Shown here: in pieces, positions 43,362 to 49,523 of the stretch | How the letters are laid out: every line of letters starts with the position of its first letter | Position numbering within the stretch: position 1 is the first letter of the stretch | The notes under the pieces: model-generated | Database searches by the model: none | The model's input: the letters and a program-made list of their open reading frames with translations, nothing else | Told to the model about the DNA's origin: nothing | NCBI GenBank assembly: GCA_024244705.1 | Contig: JAAEOK010000064.1 | Coordinates: 62,001 to 126,000 of the forward strand | From: Alphaproteobacteria bacterium | GTDB taxonomy: Bacteria > Pseudomonadota > Alphaproteobacteria > JAAEOK01 | DNA: 64,000 nucleotides | Reading direction: 5' to 3' | Program-made: the position numbers and the translations under genes

Positions 43362-43787
43362 TCATCCTTGCACCCACGGCAAGCCCAAGGCCTTCCAGCC
43401 GGTAATCGTGCCGCGATGATAGGTGTCGTCTGGCGGGCCCTCGAACCCGTCGGCGATATTAAAGCATTTCTCATAGCCGTGCGCCGTCAGCAGCTGCGCG
43501 GCCGACCGAGAGCGCTGGCCGGAACGACACAGCAGGAGCACGGACTTGTCCGGCGATACGCCGTGGGCGGACAACTCTTCGGTAAAGCCGGAATTCAGCG
43601 CCATGTCGGGGTAGGTCTGCCACGAGACACAGACCGGCGACCGGCCAAGCTGCTCGAGATTGGGCAGCCCGACGAAACTCCATTCGGCGTCCGAACGCAC
43701 ATCGACCAACACCGCATCGGCATCGGCAACGAGCAAATCCCAAGCCTCGCGCGACGTGATGTCGCCGGCATATCCGGCGGCCGTCAT
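43362..43787 (-). CDS. Rhodanese-like domain protein
   Basis: A 141-residue single-domain rhodanese with the active-site loop LLLCRSGQRSRSAA (catalytic Cys) and the earlier DVRSDAEW. It probably moves sulfane sulfur. Its location between cysH and metZ suggests a role in handling sulfide or persulfide made by the operon; this is inference. The ATG overlaps the cysH stop by four bases, so the two are co-translated. Confidence 0.88.
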   Translation of the reverse strand: MTAAGYAGDITSREAWDLLVADADAVLVDVRSDAEWSFVGLPNLEQLGRSPVCVSWQTYPDMALNSGFTEELSAHGVSPDKSVLLLCRSGQRSRSAAQLLTAHGYEKCFNIADGFEGPPDDTYHRGTITGWKALGLPWVQG

Positions 43788-44545
43788 ACGATGTCCTCCG
43801 CCGGTTCGAACCACCGCGCGCAATGGATGCCACATTCCGTCTTGGCGCTGCCCGCCCATCGTCCCGACCGCGCCGGGTCGCCATCCTGCACTCTGCCGGT
43901 GCACGGCTGGCACCCGATCGAGGCATAGCCGTGACCGACCAGGGGGTGATAGGGAAGGTCGCGTTCGACGAAGCGGGCGGTGATTTCGACCCGGCTCGAT
44001 CCGGCCAGGGGGTTGATCTTGAAACGCCCCTCTTCGACTTCGACCATGGTCAGCCGGTCGCGATCAAAGCCTTGGAACCGCTTGCGCCCGGTGATCCAGG
44101 CGTCGAATCCGGCCAGCGCATCGTCGAGCGGCAGAACCTTGCGGATTTGACAGCACAGATCCGGATCGGAGCGATGCAGGGTACCGTCGGGATCGTATTT
44201 GGCGAGATGATACCACGACGGCTCGACCGATCGGACGTCGGTCAGACCGAGGCGGGCAACCAGGATGTCGCGATAGTTCCGGGTTTCCCAGAACAGCTTT
44301 CCGGTATCGAGGAAGATGACCGGCGTCGTCGGATCGACCTGTGCCACGAGGTCGAGGAGGACGGCGGAATCGGCGCCGAATGACGATACGACCGCGATCC
44401 GCCCGGCGAAGTCCCGGCGGATCGCACGCTCGACGACGTCACCGGCGTCGATCGCGGTATAGTCGCCATCGAGCATTGCCGCGCGGTCCGACAATGATTC
44501 CTTACACGGAGTGCTGTACCCGACCGGTTTTGGCAACGCCGTCAT
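43784..44545 (-). CDS. cysH: Phosphoadenylyl/adenylyl-sulfate reductase
   Basis: A 253-residue CysH. SSFGADSAVLLDL is the PP-loop-like nucleotide site, DTGKLFWETRNY follows, and the four cysteines CC (in DPDLCCQIRK) and CxxC (in GCQPCTGR) are those that bind a [4Fe-4S] cluster. The C-terminal ECGIHC carries the redox Cys. The cluster cysteines indicate the APS-using assimilatory type, so PAPS may not be needed. The enzyme gives sulfite for the sulfite reductase encoded upstream. Confidence 0.92.
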   Translation of the reverse strand: MTALPKPVGYSTPCKESLSDRAAMLDGDYTAIDAGDVVERAIRRDFAGRIAVVSSFGADSAVLLDLVAQVDPTTPVIFLDTGKLFWETRNYRDILVARLGLTDVRSVEPSWYHLAKYDPDGTLHRSDPDLCCQIRKVLPLDDALAGFDAWITGRKRFQGFDRDRLTMVEVEEGRFKINPLAGSSRVEITARFVERDLPYHPLVGHGYASIGCQPCTGRVQDGDPARSGRWAGSAKTECGIHCARWFEPAEDIV

Positions 44546-44559
44546 CGCGCGTCGACCTC

Positions 44560-45066
44560 CTATTCCGCCGCCGCTTGGTGAGCCTGCCGCAGGGCCAACA
44601 CTGGGGTCCGCGAATCGGTCGCCGGTTGATACCACACGCTAAACTCCGAGATGCTCTGCAGCCACGCCCCGGCGTGGCGATCGTCGGCCACCTCGAAGGC
44701 ATCGAAACCACAGCGGTGGAGGAACAGGAACTGGTCGCGCAACACGTTGCCGACGGCGCGCAGCTCGCCGTCGAACCCGAGGCGCTCGCGCAGCAGCCGT
44801 GCGTAGGAATAGGCGCGGCCGTCGCGGAAAACCGGGAACTCGAGCGCCACCAAATCGAAACGATCGAGCTCGTCGGCGATCTCCACCGGCGGTTCATCGG
44901 CGGCCAGCCGGATGCCGAGCGGTCCGCTCCGGGCACGCAGGGATTCCTTCTGTTCCCGCCACCGGGTCAGCGACACGATGACCGGGCCGTGCGGAATGAT
45001 GTCATCGGCGTCGTCCACATATCGCCACTGATCGACGACAGTATTTCCACCTTTAATGAGGGGCAT
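44560..45066 (-). CDS. DUF934 protein of the sulfite reductase operon
   Basis: A 168-residue DUF934 protein. Conserved segments are RWREQKESLRAR, GPLGIRLAADE, LEFPVFRDGRAYSYARLLRERL and GNVLRDQFLFLHRCGFDAF. The family occurs almost always beside sulfite reductase genes and is thought to help that enzyme, possibly in electron delivery or assembly; the mechanism is not known. The start ATG lies inside the 3' end of the reductase gene (14-base overlap). Confidence 0.87.
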   Translation of the reverse strand: MPLIKGGNTVVDQWRYVDDADDIIPHGPVIVSLTRWREQKESLRARSGPLGIRLAADEPPVEIADELDRFDLVALEFPVFRDGRAYSYARLLRERLGFDGELRAVGNVLRDQFLFLHRCGFDAFEVADDRHAGAWLQSISEFSVWYQPATDSRTPVLALRQAHQAAAE

Positions 45067-46708
45067 AGAGCTTCTCCTTGAAGGGTTCCGCGCCAATCCG
45101 ACGGTAGGTGTCGAGAAAGCGCTCGCCGTTGTGTCGAAGGCCGACATAGGTTTCGACGATGGTTTCGACCGCATCGCCGACTTGATCGGCGGCAAAGGCG
45201 GGACCCACGATTGCCCCCAGCGAGGCATTCTGGTCGGCGCTGCCGCCAAGCGTGATCTGATAGAATTCCTCGCCTTTCTTATCGACGCCGAGGATGCCGA
45301 TATGGCCGACGTGATGGTGGCCGCAGGCGTTGATGCAACCCGAGATCTTGATCTTGAGTTCGCCGATGCCGTGCTGCCGGCTGAGATCGGAAAACCGCTC
45401 GCTGATCTCCTGTGCCACCGGAATCGAGCGGGCATTGGCAAGATTGCAATAGTCGAGGCCCGGACAGGCGATGATATCGCTGACCTGGCCGATGTTGGGG
45501 GTCGCCAGCTCGATCGCCGACAGCTCGCGCCAGAGTTCGGCGAGATCCTTCTGGCGCACATGGGCCAGCACCAGGTTTTGCTCATGGGTGACGCGAATCT
45601 CGCCGAAACTGTAACGGTCGGCGAGGTCGGCGACGGCATCCATTTGACGGTCGCTGGCATCGCCCGGCACGCCGCCGATCGGCTTCAATGACAGATTGAC
45701 GATGGCGTAGCCGGGCTGGCGGTGGGCGACGACATTGGTCTGGTTCCAATCATCGAACGCCTCGTCGGCGCGACGCGCCGCGGCAAGCGCGGCATCCGCG
45801 GCCGCCAGCGTCTCGAACGGCGGCGGCGCGAAGAAGGTCTCGATGCGGGCGATTTCGTCGGCCGGCAGCGCCAGCGCACCGTCCTTCATGTGCTGCCATT
45901 CCTCCTCGACCAGGCGGGCGAATTCCTCGGCACCGACGCTGGCGACCAGGATCTTGATCCGTGCCTTGAACATGTTGTCGCGGCGGCCGAGCTGGTTATA
46001 GGTGCGCAGGATCGCCTCGAGGTAACTGAGCAGGTAGCGCTTGGGCAGGAACTCGCGGATCGTCGGGCCGACCATCGGGGTGCGGCCGAGGCCGCCGCCG
46101 ACGATGACCTCGAACCCGACCTCGCCATCGGCGTTGCGGTGCATGCGGAGGCCGATGTCATGAACGCGCACGGCGGCGCGGTCGTTCGGCGAGCCGGTTA
46201 TGGCGATCTTGAATTTGCGCGGCAGGAACGAGAATTCCGGATGCAGGGTCGACCACTGCCGGATGATCTCGCTATAAACCCGCGGGTCCTCGATCTCATC
46301 CGCCGCGGCGCCGGCATATTGGTCGGCGGTCACGTTGCGGATGCAATTGCCGCTGGTCTGGATGGCGTGCATCTCGACCTCGGCGAGATCGTCGAGGATG
46401 TCGGGAACGTCGACCAGCCGCGGCCAGTTGTACTGGATGTTCTGACGGGTGGTGAAGTGACCGTACCCGCGGTCGTACTTGCGCGCGATGTGGGCCAACT
46501 GCCGCAACTGGCGGGACGACAGCGTGCCATAGGGGATCGCGACGCGCAGCATGTAAGCGTGGAGTTGGAGGTAAAGACCGTTCATCAGCCTGAGCGGCCG
46601 GAATTCTTCCTCCGTCAGCTCGCCGCACAGGCGGCGCGCGACCTGGCCGCGGAACTGGGCCACGCGTTCGCGCACCAGGGTGGTGTCATATCGGTCGTAC
46701 TGGTACAT
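45053..46708 (-). CDS. Ferredoxin-type sulfite reductase (nitrite/sulfite reductase family)
   Basis: A 551-residue siroheme enzyme with two ferredoxin-like and two catalytic repeats. The [4Fe-4S]/siroheme cysteines are in CPGLDYC (C-x5-C) and GCINACG (C-x3-C). TSGNCIRNVTADQ and GHFTTRQNIQYNW are family motifs. It reduces sulfite to sulfide by six electrons; nitrite use cannot be excluded but the sulfur genes on both sides decide the call. Siroheme is provided by cysG in the same operon. Confidence 0.92.
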   Translation of the reverse strand: MYQYDRYDTTLVRERVAQFRGQVARRLCGELTEEEFRPLRLMNGLYLQLHAYMLRVAIPYGTLSSRQLRQLAHIARKYDRGYGHFTTRQNIQYNWPRLVDVPDILDDLAEVEMHAIQTSGNCIRNVTADQYAGAAADEIEDPRVYSEIIRQWSTLHPEFSFLPRKFKIAITGSPNDRAAVRVHDIGLRMHRNADGEVGFEVIVGGGLGRTPMVGPTIREFLPKRYLLSYLEAILRTYNQLGRRDNMFKARIKILVASVGAEEFARLVEEEWQHMKDGALALPADEIARIETFFAPPPFETLAAADAALAAARRADEAFDDWNQTNVVAHRQPGYAIVNLSLKPIGGVPGDASDRQMDAVADLADRYSFGEIRVTHEQNLVLAHVRQKDLAELWRELSAIELATPNIGQVSDIIACPGLDYCNLANARSIPVAQEISERFSDLSRQHGIGELKIKISGCINACGHHHVGHIGILGVDKKGEEFYQITLGGSADQNASLGAIVGPAFAADQVGDAVETIVETYVGLRHNGERFLDTYRRIGAEPFKEKLYAPH

Positions 46709-46715
46709 CGCGCGA

Positions 46716-47006
46716 TTAGCTCCCGTAGGCCTGCTTGCCGAGGTCCAACCGCACCGACGGGCCCTTGCTGCGTATCGTTTCGCGGCACCCCTGCGGGTGC
46801 CATCCGTCGCCGAGCTTGATCAGGTAGGACTCGACGACGATACCGTCGCGCTGGGCGGCCTCCCCGGTGGCCAGCAACTCCTGGGCAAACTCCGCGTCCT
46901 CGGCGATGCGGGCCTCGTCGATCCTTTCGGTCCAGGTGCCGTCCTCGGCGAGATAGACAACCGCTCCGTCGCGCAAGCGGTTGGCAGTAACGACCTGTTG
47001 GCTCAT
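46716..47006 (-). CDS. DUF2849 protein of the cys operon
   Basis: A 96-residue DUF2849 protein with TANRLRDGAVVYL, TWTERIDEARIA and ESYLIKLGDG. The family is short and found between cysG and the sulfite reductase in alphaproteobacteria. Its role is unknown; the position suggests a partner of one of the two enzymes. It starts 10 bases after the cysG stop and ends seven bases before the reductase start. Confidence 0.88.
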   Translation of the reverse strand: MSQQVVTANRLRDGAVVYLAEDGTWTERIDEARIAEDAEFAQELLATGEAAQRDGIVVESYLIKLGDGWHPQGCRETIRSKGPSVRLDLGKQAYGS

Positions 47007-47016
47007 GGCAAACTCC

Positions 47017-48423
47017 TCAGTTGGCGCCGACGGCGCGCGCGAATTCAGGCAACGTCTCGACAGTAGCCGCGGTGACGACGTCGCCGATGACGATCACCGC
47101 CGGTCCCGTGATATCGCCGGCGACGATCAAGCGCGCGGTCTCGCTGACCCTGCCGATGGCGACCTTTTGACTGGGCAAGGTGCCGTTCTCGATCACGGCG
47201 ACCGGCGTCGCCGCGTCCAATCCGCTTTCGATCAGCCGCGCGGCAATCCGGGCCGCCGCCGAAACGCCCATGTAAATCACCAATGTCCGGCCGCGCCCGG
47301 CGAGCGTCGACCAATCGAGGTCCGACGCACCGTCCTTGACGTGACCGGTCAGCAAGGTGACAGCCTGGGCGTGATCGCGATGGGTGAGCGGAATACCGGT
47401 CGCCGCCGCGCAACCGCTGGCCGCGGTGATACCGGGCACGACTTCGGCGGTGACGCCGTGGCGGTGCAAATACGCGACTTCCTCACCCCCGCGTCCGAAG
47501 ACGAAGGGGTCGCCGCCCTTGAGCCGGACGACCCGGCGCCCGGCGCGGGCGTGGGCCAGGATCGAGTCGTTGATCTCGGCCTGGGTTTTGGTGTGGCGGG
47601 ACTTGCTCTTGCCGACAAAGATCCGCTCCGCATCACGCCGAACAAGGTCGAGAATGCCGGCACCGACGAGTTTGTCGTAAATGACCACGTCGGCATTTTC
47701 GAGCAACCGCAGCGCCTTGAGCGTCAGCAGCTCAGGGTCGCCGGGACCGGCGCCGACGATGTGAACCGATCCGGCGTCTCCGCTATCCGATTGTGGCCGA
47801 TTGATCAGCGATAGCATCTGCTCGCGGGCACCGGCGATATCGCCGTCGAGGACCCGCGCCGCGACCGGCCCGTCGAAAAACGATTCCCAGAACCGTCGCC
47901 GCTCGGTATCGCTGGTCGTCGTCGCCTTGACCGCGGTACGAAAGGATTCGGCGAAACGCGCCAGCGCGCCCAACCGCTGCGGCAGCAGGCGCTCGATAGC
48001 GGCGCGCAGGCGACGGGCCAGCACCGGCGCCGCGCCACCGGAACCGATGGCGACCACGACCGGGTCGCGATCGACGACCGCCGGCGTGACGAAAGTGGAG
48101 AGGTCGGCGCGATCGACGACATTTACCGGAATGCCTGCGTCTTGCGCCGCTTCGCCGACCCGCGCATCGACCGCCTCCCGGCCGGTGGCGGCGATGGCAA
48201 GAACCTTGTCCCGCAGGTCACCGGCGACGAAGCCGCGGCGCACCCAAGCAACCGTACCGTCATTCACCAGCGCGTCGATTTCGGCAACGACATCGAAGGC
48301 GACGACCGTGACCAAGGCGTCCGCCTTACGCAGCAGCCGGATCTTGCGGGCGGCCGGTTCGCCGCCGCCGACAACCACCACCGGACGCGCCTGGAGAGAG
48401 AGAAAGAGAGGGAAATATTGCAC
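47017..48423 (-). CDS. cysG: Siroheme synthase (precorrin-2 dehydrogenase + uroporphyrinogen-III methyltransferase)
   Basis: A 468-residue fusion. The N-terminal ~210 residues are the dehydrogenase/ferrochelatase part (FPLFLSLQARPVVVVGGGEPA, NVVDRADLSTF). The C-terminal methyltransferase has VHIVGAGPGDPELLTLKAL, RLKGGDPFVFGRGGEE and TGHVKDG. It makes siroheme for the sulfite reductase. The GTG at 48423 is chosen because AAGGAG (48437-48432) lies at the right distance and PLFLSL begins the domain; the open frame further up covers the riboswitch region. First gene of the cys operon. Confidence 0.94.
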   Translation of the reverse strand: MQYFPLFLSLQARPVVVVGGGEPAARKIRLLRKADALVTVVAFDVVAEIDALVNDGTVAWVRRGFVAGDLRDKVLAIAATGREAVDARVGEAAQDAGIPVNVVDRADLSTFVTPAVVDRDPVVVAIGSGGAAPVLARRLRAAIERLLPQRLGALARFAESFRTAVKATTTSDTERRRFWESFFDGPVAARVLDGDIAGAREQMLSLINRPQSDSGDAGSVHIVGAGPGDPELLTLKALRLLENADVVIYDKLVGAGILDLVRRDAERIFVGKSKSRHTKTQAEINDSILAHARAGRRVVRLKGGDPFVFGRGGEEVAYLHRHGVTAEVVPGITAASGCAAATGIPLTHRDHAQAVTLLTGHVKDGASDLDWSTLAGRGRTLVIYMGVSAAARIAARLIESGLDAATPVAVIENGTLPSQKVAIGRVSETARLIVAGDITGPAVIVIGDVVTAATVETLPEFARAVGAN

Positions 48424-48431
48424 CGGGTACG

Positions 48432-48474
48432 CTCCTTGCCACTCAACAAAGGGCCCACGGAGCACTCCCCGTGG
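48432..48474 (-). promoter_or_regulatory. cysG: cysG ribosome binding site with overlapping hairpin
   Basis: AAGGAG (48437-48432) is eight bases from the GTG. Just upstream, CCACGG (48474-48469) and CCGTGG (48460-48455) form a hairpin. Its CTCC (48462-48459) can pair either with the local GGAG (48468-48465) or with the GGAG of the ribosome binding site, so alternative folds could hide or free the site. The alternative pairing is an inference. Confidence 0.5.
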
Positions 48475-48476
48475 CG

Positions 48477-48522
48477 CTTTAGCTTTGATGTCGCGGTGCA
48501 AGCTGCCCTATCAAATCCCGCG
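48477..48522 (-). promoter_or_regulatory. Second SAM-II/SAM-V-like aptamer
   Basis: Helix P1 CGCGG (48522-48518)/CCGCG (48496-48492) encloses a 21-nt loop beginning GATTTGA and containing CTTGC, followed 8 nt later by GCTAAAG (48483-48477). These are the conserved elements of the SAM-II core, in the same order and with the same loop length as the first aptamer. A shorter linker before GCTAAAG is the main difference, as might be expected of a SAM-V-type or degenerate copy. It lies after the terminator and before the cysG ribosome binding site. Confidence 0.6.
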
Positions 48523-48545
48523 GGTCCGTCAGGGAGGACCAGGCC

Positions 48546-48578
48546 AAAAAAAATCCGCCGCAGCAGAGGCTGGGCGGA
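48546..48578 (-). terminator. Riboswitch-controlled intrinsic terminator
   Basis: TCCGCCCAGC (48578-48569) pairs with the following GCTG-C-GGCGGA around CTCT, then eight T. The antiterminator is visible: AGAGGC (48592-48587) and GCAG (48600-48597), both from the end of the SAM-II aptamer, can pair with GCCTCT (48570-48565) and CTGC (48563-48560) in the terminator's 5' arm and loop. SAM binding should hold the aptamer and let the terminator form. Confidence 0.85.
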
Positions 48579-48587
48579 ATCCGAGGG

Positions 48588-48642
48588 CCTCTTTAGCTGC
48601 ATTTGTAAAGCGCCCAGCAATCTGACAATCAAATCGGCGCTA
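48588..48642 (-). promoter_or_regulatory. SAM-II riboswitch aptamer
   Basis: Read on the minus strand: AGCGCC (48641-48636), GATTTGA, ATTGC, GGCGCT (48614-48609) closing helix P1, then ACAAATGCAGCTAAAGAGG. Every conserved SAM-II block is present in order and spacing (GAUUU, UUGC, AAAUG, AGCUAAA), as in the crystallised metX example. It begins at the predicted transcription start. Binding of S-adenosylmethionine is expected to turn the cys operon off. Confidence 0.9.
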
Positions 48643-48650
48643 CGCCACCC

Positions 48651-48679
48651 TAAGTAAGTCGAAGCAAAAAAAACGTCAA
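48651..48679 (-). promoter_or_regulatory. Promoter of the cys operon
   Basis: TTGACG (48679-48674) and TACTTA (48656-48651) are separated by exactly 17 bases, a good sigma-70-like pair. Transcription from about 48644 would start the message at the first base of the SAM-II aptamer. Confidence 0.7.
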
Positions 48680-48905
48680 CTGGAATCTTCGATTTTTTTT
48701 CGGCGGCCGATCAAGAGGCCGTGAAGACGCGTGGCGTGGCGTTCATTGCGCCGTCTGGCGAGCGCCAAAAAACCGCGGGCCGGCACCTGCCCACATCCAG
48801 AAAATGTGCGCCATACGAAGACGCCCCCTTGCAACCAAGCCGTATCGGCCCCATTCTAGGAGGCCGTCGGCGCGCAGCGCGCAATGTTTCCCCGAGATCG
48901 CCGCG

Positions 48906-49523
48906 ATGGACAACGCCAGTATCATCAAATCGTACAACCGCTGGGCGCCCGGTTACGACGTAGTCTTTTCCGGCATCGTCCAGAACGGGCGCAAACTGGC
49001 GGTCGAATTGATGAAATGCCGGCCCGGAGACCGCGTCCTCGAGGTCGGCGTGGGAACCGGACTTTCGCTTTCCTTCTATCCGCGTGAAACCGAGGTCGTC
49101 GGCATCGACCTCACGCCCAGCATGTTGGAAAAGGCGAAGAAGAGGGCCGAACGGAAGGATATCGACAATGTCGACCTGACGGTCATGGACGCGCAATCGA
49201 TGACGTTCCCCGACGCCAGCTTCGACAAGATCGTCGCCATGTATGTCGCGTCCGTGGTGCCGGATCCGAAGAAGATGGTGGAAGAAATGCGCCGGGTCTG
49301 CAAACCGGGCGGTGACATATTTATCGTCAACCATTTCGAAAACGAGTTTTGGCTGGTGCGGGGTTTCGAGACATTGCTCGCGCCGCTGTCGAAATTTCTC
49401 GGCTTCCGGCCCGATTTCCCGCTCGCCGACTTCGTTGCCGAGACCGGCCTCGACGTCATCGAAACCCAGCCCGTCAATCTGTTCGGTTATTGGACCCTGA
49501 TCCGCGCCCGCAACGAAATCTGA
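48906..49523 (+). CDS. Phospholipid/small-molecule N-methyltransferase, PmtA-like
   Basis: A 205-residue class I SAM methyltransferase. RWAPGYDVVFSGIVQNGRK, SAM motif I VLEVGVGTGLSL, VVGIDLTPSMLEKAKKRAE and VCKPGGDIFIVNHF resemble the Rhodobacter-type PmtA that converts phosphatidylethanolamine to phosphatidylcholine. The PmtA call is made from the short length and motif order. It is divergent from cysG; the gap (48680-48905) holds its own promoter, not clearly recognisable. The ATG at 48906 is used. Confidence 0.72.
   Translation: MDNASIIKSYNRWAPGYDVVFSGIVQNGRKLAVELMKCRPGDRVLEVGVGTGLSLSFYPRETEVVGIDLTPSMLEKAKKRAERKDIDNVDLTVMDAQSMTFPDASFDKIVAMYVASVVPDPKKMVEEMRRVCKPGGDIFIVNHFENEFWLVRGFETLLAPLSKFLGFRPDFPLADFVAETGLDVIETQPVNLFGYWTLIRARNEI

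Follow-up and report, generated by a model that had tools for sequence, protein, structure and literature searches.

The window analysed here, a stretch of 64,000 nucleotides, carries on its minus strand an operon encoding CysG, a sulfite-reductase-like protein and CysH (Table 1). In its leader, read from 48641 to 48432, a SAM-II aptamer comes first, followed by a strong terminator; a second pseudoknot of SAM-II type then precedes the ribosome binding site of cysG. Both motifs, in the minus-strand reading, comprise a P1 helix, a 21-nt loop that starts with GATTTGA and holds TTGC, and a 3' strand GCTAAAG, and they differ in the length of the linker between P1 and GCTAA (motif 1, 11 nt; motif 2, 8 nt). 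The two-sensor arrangement at the cysG leader is real, and the repeated elements and shorter second linker listed in the preliminary description were all found. The promoter proposed in Table 1 was absent from the list of a consensus scan with stricter rules; TTGACA-like boxes occur at the equivalent place in relatives. The divergent neighbour (48804-49523, plus strand) is similar to a PmtA-like, SAM-dependent phospholipid N-methyltransferase (198 bits, under its cut-off).

Table 1. Features of the cysG leader and operon in the window (all on the minus strand).
Feature	Position	Strand	Details and basis
Possible sigma-70-like promoter	48651..48679	-	TTGACG 48679-48674, 17-nt spacer, TACTTA 48656-48651; immediately before aptamer 1; by eye
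Aptamer 1 (SAM-II)	48591..48641	-	P1 AGCGCC 48641-48636 with GGCGCT 48614-48609; 11-nt linker; RF00521, alignment A5, pair counts
Aptamer 1 P2	48620-48617 with 48597-48593	-	UUGC with GC-U-AA; alignment A5 and pair counts
Antiterminator (predicted)	48559..48601	-	UGCAGC 48601-48596 with GCUGCG 48564-48559; compensatory change and stepwise folding
Antiterminator extension in the window (predicted)	48592-48587 with 48570-48565	-	AGAGGC with GCCUCU; folding
Intrinsic terminator	48546..48578	-	Outer stem UCCGCC/GGCGGA, inner stem CAGC/GCUG, then U8
Aptamer 2 (short-linker SAM-II)	48473..48522	-	P1 CGCGG 48522-48518 with CCGCG 48496-48492; 8-nt linker
Aptamer 2 P2	48506-48498 with 48483-48474	-	GC-A-GCUUGC with GCUAAAGCGC; C48473 may pair additionally with G48507
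Hairpin CCACGG/CCGTGG	48455..48474	-	5' CC overlaps the end of aptamer 2 P2; 3' side holds anti-Shine-Dalgarno UGCUCC 48464-48459
Shine-Dalgarno	48430..48437	-	AAGGAG 48437-48432; anti-Shine-Dalgarno partner GGAGCG 48435-48430
cysG, siroheme synthase	47017..48423	-	468 aa; GTG start 48423-48421; NCBIfam NF007922, 589.6 bits
Small ORF between cysG and the reductase gene	46716..47006	-	DUF2849-like, judged from its position and similarity to L126/L128; NCBIfam search without match
Nitrite/sulfite-reductase family protein	45053..46708	-	Score under curated cut-offs; likely the operon's sulfite reductase
cysH, phosphoadenylyl-sulfate reductase	43784..44635	-	NF002537, 246 bits

A cmscan search with RF00521 returned aptamer 1 at 48650-48572 (35.1 bits, E 2e-6) and aptamer 2 at 48531-48459 (23.3 bits, E 0.0035). 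The structural features of SAM-II are present, namely P1 with the GATTTGA loop and a P2 pseudoknot of TTGC with GC-U-AA; the two core-adjacent pairs of P2 in aptamer 1 are mismatched (A.G and G.A). RF00521 also scored a third genomic site (L003, 21.2 bits); this falls within what appears by eye to be a xanthine-dehydrogenase-type coding region, and was taken as chance. Since the organism's is the only genome in its genus, family and order, relatives for comparison were taken from the class, with CysG relatives fetched from public genomes.

The terminator following aptamer 1 has a folding energy of -17.4 kcal/mol (z -5.2). We found that, at the tandem loci, the terminator has a complement in the bases around the beginning of the P2 3' strand, and the letters on the two sides change together, with GCAGC/GCTGC in the window, L004 and L072, GCGGC/GCCGC in L123, L129 and L161, and CCAGC/GCTGG in L125. 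Each locus's own two strands pair at -10.7 kcal/mol on average, as compared with -8.9 kcal/mol for permuted partners (n=16 tandem loci); none of 20,000 permutations was as low, and removal of near-duplicates left n=14 and P=5e-5. The predicted antiterminator joining the aptamer 1 3' strand to the terminator is therefore backed by locus-specific compensatory change (P<=5e-5). It is mutually exclusive with both aptamer 1 P2 and the terminator, and in the window it extends to a helix of GCAGC-UAA-AGAGGC with GCCUCU-GCUGC. The antiterminator came out best when the window was folded stepwise to 3' ends 48559 and 48556, in a calculation that leaves out pseudoknot and tertiary energies, and the terminator was favoured from 48554; with the full stretch folded, the terminator was 2.5 kcal/mol ahead of a forced antiterminator, and locking aptamer 1 in the folding let the terminator form. 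As modelled, stage one has the layout of a SAM-OFF attenuator.

The first-aptamer subtype (P1 AGCGCC, AAATGCRGCTAA) is common across the class, often without a second aptamer. Genome G162 carries two aptamer-1-type SAM-II elements separated by about 1.35 kb on the same strand (L123:9-85 and L123:1363-1439), the second of which stands in tandem with aptamer 2.

For the second motif, the preliminary description had allowed for a SAM-V aptamer, which would make the leader an instance of the known SAM-II/SAM-V tandem. The identical order of platforms and the short linker as a hint of SAM-V speak for this reading, as do the nearly identical pseudoknot cores of SAM-II and SAM-V (PMC6061858). However, the SAM-V model RF01826 gave no match at E<=10 in either the leader or the whole genome. 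SAM-V carries a P3 hairpin after P1 and has the Shine-Dalgarno inside P2a (PMC6061858), whereas aptamer 2 is devoid of a P3 hairpin, for which its 8-nt linker is too small, and its Shine-Dalgarno is found about 35 nt beyond P2 and outside P2a. Because both of these SAM-V hallmarks fail here, we assign motif 2 to a short-linker form of SAM-II and regard the SAM-V assignment as very improbable. The likeness to the SAM-II/SAM-V tandem holds for the proposed order of transcription and then translation, and does not extend to the class of the second aptamer.

A model built from 38 relative loci with the window left out (R3) gave motif 2 a score of 93.7 bits (E 1.7e-17), its sole credible match in the 4.5-Mb genome, the next place having an E value of 2.5. 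The linker of this subtype measures 7-10 nt over 72 loci and 9 nt in 55 of them, in comparison with 11 nt in all 15 parsable canonical RF00521 loci. Aptamer 2 has seven P2 pairs, all invariant in 69/69 distinct relatives, and the letters of the binding core are kept. Both sides changed in three pairs of P1 and four of the hairpin, a total of seven that none of 500 shuffles equalled (69 distinct sequences), and 99.6% of cells pair in the aligned relatives (n=69) as against 28-53% in slid versions; since P1 and the hairpin, but not P2, formed the model to which the sequences were aligned, these pair counts lean towards the two fitted helices. A helix between the P1 5' strand GGACCCGCGG and CCGTGGGCCC, considered as a SAM-free state, was rejected, as folding populated it in few relatives and not in the window. 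The low RF00521 score of 23.3 bits could be read as the mark of a functionless, degenerate copy of aptamer 1, an idea to which we give practically no credence in view of a subtype that is conserved in 79 of 385 genomes, often stands without aptamer 1, keeps P2 invariant and compensates changes in P1.

Downstream of aptamer 2 lies the hairpin whose CTCC was proposed to face the ribosome binding site, and this proposal is borne out, as its pairing with the Shine-Dalgarno co-varies in relatives. Four of its six pairs change on both sides across relatives. Among the relatives closest to the window (n=19), anti-Shine-Dalgarno and Shine-Dalgarno sequences pair with their own partners at -16.0, as compared with -13.7 for permuted ones (P=1e-4); the same test in a more distant subset was not significant (P=0.12, n=25). 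In a pattern scan, CCACGGGGAGTGCTCCGTGG with GCCCTTTGTT behind it came up as terminator-like, so that the hairpin might be a second terminator and both platforms transcriptional. We consider this quite improbable, because close relatives have the same hairpin without a T-rich tail and the pairing of the hairpin with the Shine-Dalgarno co-varies.

The putative control of translation by the second aptamer is well supported by comparison. Aptamer 2 P2 ends in GCGCC, whose CC doubles as the foot of the hairpin. When GCGCC was withheld, as if P2 were locked, the predicted opening of the Shine-Dalgarno fell in 14 and rose in 1 of 25 closer relatives (Wilcoxon 4e-5), in a test that is biased towards lower opening, as the removed sequence can itself hold the anti-Shine-Dalgarno. 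The window's own sequence showed no change on P2 locking (opening 0.33 vs 0.33 in the secondary-structure energy model, with which a fuller model agrees), and the OFF direction of stage two at this locus is for that reason graded only as likely. The opposite direction, an ON switch in which SAM-bound P1 and P2 let the hairpin keep the anti-Shine-Dalgarno while the ribosome binding site opens, appears unlikely: the hairpin could form despite P2 at a loss of only two pairs, and the window's own energies do not decide, but the average behaviour of the relatives indicates OFF, and an ON switch would work against stage one and against the role of the genes in biosynthesis. Incoherent SAM-II control has been reported for metA (PMC9373788).

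We propose a two-stage SAM-OFF leader that controls transcription first and translation second, and put the probability of this reading at roughly 80%. Comparison among relatives establishes both aptamers, the terminator and the hairpin as conserved predicted structures, together with the predicted antiterminator and anti-Shine-Dalgarno:Shine-Dalgarno pairings. Without SAM, the linker and 3' strand of aptamer 1 (UGCAGCUAAAGAGGC) would pair with the loop and 3' side of the terminator (GCCUCUGCUGCG), so that the polymerase continues. With SAM, P2 would capture the aptamer 1 3' strand, the terminator would form and transcription would end. Transcripts that escape would encounter aptamer 2, whose P2 would, with SAM, capture GCGCC, the foot of the CCACGG/CCGTGG hairpin; the freed CUCC would then pair with the Shine-Dalgarno, blocking cysG translation. 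SAM is presumably the ligand, with both stages presumably responding to it in the OFF direction.

To describe the distribution, we scanned 385 alphaproteobacterial genomes. The second-motif model R1 matches 79 and the first-aptamer model R2 matches 146 of them, and by intersection of listed positions about 22 hold an R1 and R2 tandem within 300 nt. In a phylum-level sample, 12/12 matching genomes fall in the class Alphaproteobacteria. The tandem precedes cysG at five loci, namely the window, L004 (a Kiloniellaceae MAG; CysG 64% identical), L072 (a Hwanghaeella MAG; CysG 49% identical), L130 and L132. The test that the preliminary description had set for its own refutation gave a split answer, as neither window aptamer reaches the RF00521 gathering score of 36 bits and the tandem is strongly conserved. 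The second aptamer also occurs alone before cysG, in L015, L020 and L021 (labelled Minwuia or Kordiimonadales). There, an ORF of 24-31 codons follows the single aptamer and ends at cysG as TGAxxATG, a junction that suggests translational coupling. Genes 3' of the aptamer-2 subtype are mostly Met, Cys or SAM genes. Rfam scanning of 20 loci with an aptamer-2 relative gave one such aptamer at 36 bits or above (L126, 37.9); this common subtype, being mostly below threshold, would be missed by annotation pipelines at the Rfam cut-off.

At many loci of the more distant set, the ORF that comes first after the subtype encodes a short Cys-rich peptide, ahead of Met or sulfate transport and sulfur genes. 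The 36 short ORFs contain 74 Cys in 816 residues (9%), and 23 of them have at least two. Such first ORFs after an R1 match were seen at L173, L183, L160, L157, L159, L163, L150, L152, L143, L177, L178 and others, with peptides such as MTCCCP, MTTCCP and ..LCCGGTCC. Cys-rich leader ORFs under a short-linker SAM-II aptamer suggest combined sensing of SAM and Cys-tRNA. At cysS, attenuation by Cys codons is known to occur without a SAM riboswitch (PMC8632094); the combination of a SAM riboswitch with a Cys-codon leader was not found in the open-licence papers searched. A broader hypothesis, which we hold tentatively and at somewhat less than even odds, is that this is a distinct short-linker SAM-II subtype with its own three-way anti-Shine-Dalgarno hairpin platform, present in about one-fifth of the sampled alphaproteobacterial genomes, largely unannotated at the Rfam threshold, and gating the translation of Cys-rich leader peptides in many genomes. 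If this is true, one leader would sense both SAM and charged tRNA-Cys.

The double SAM-II arrangement is of an already known kind, since a 2022 review of tandem riboswitches counted 44 tandem SAM-II pairs and 149 SAM-II/SAM-V pairs, some of the former with a terminator after the first aptamer and ribosome-binding-site control by the second (PMC9481103). The present leader shares with these mixed-platform doublets two SAM-II aptamers, the first before a terminator and the second apparently acting on the ribosome binding site; cysG is unmentioned for them, and the present locus or subtype may be among the 44. It resembles the SAM-II/SAM-V tandem of Pelagibacter and marine bacteria in its proposed transcription-then-translation control and in the expected ligand (PMC9481103, PMC11508383), although here the second aptamer is not SAM-V and masking would proceed via a released anti-Shine-Dalgarno instead of inside P2a. 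With the SAM-II metA motif (RF00521; PMC1273637) it has in common P1, the pseudoknot P2, GATTTGA, TTGC, GCTAAAG, promoter-like boxes before P1 and a terminator, whereas aptamer 2 has a linker of 7-10 rather than 11 nt and a fixed hairpin platform, and both window aptamers score under the Rfam cut-off. The Sinorhizobium metA riboswitch is, as proposed here for aptamer 2, a SAM-II element acting on translation, but it is a single aptamer with the start site at a distance (PMC9373788). Nothing relevant on SAM-II with cysG was found in open-licence papers. What look new are the deployment of such a pair at cysG and the compact subtype of the second sensor, which is widespread in Alphaproteobacteria, mostly under the Rfam cut-off, and may be under-described.

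Taken together, tandem SAM-II aptamers with a terminator and then putative ribosome-binding-site control stand at the cysG operon, as first described. The comparative set supplies the exact partners of the predicted antiterminator and anti-Shine-Dalgarno pairings. The CysG step consumes SAM, and the proposed leader would add siroheme and sulfite-reduction genes to the targets of the bi-mechanism tandem, placing the sulfate-assimilation branch under SAM feedback.
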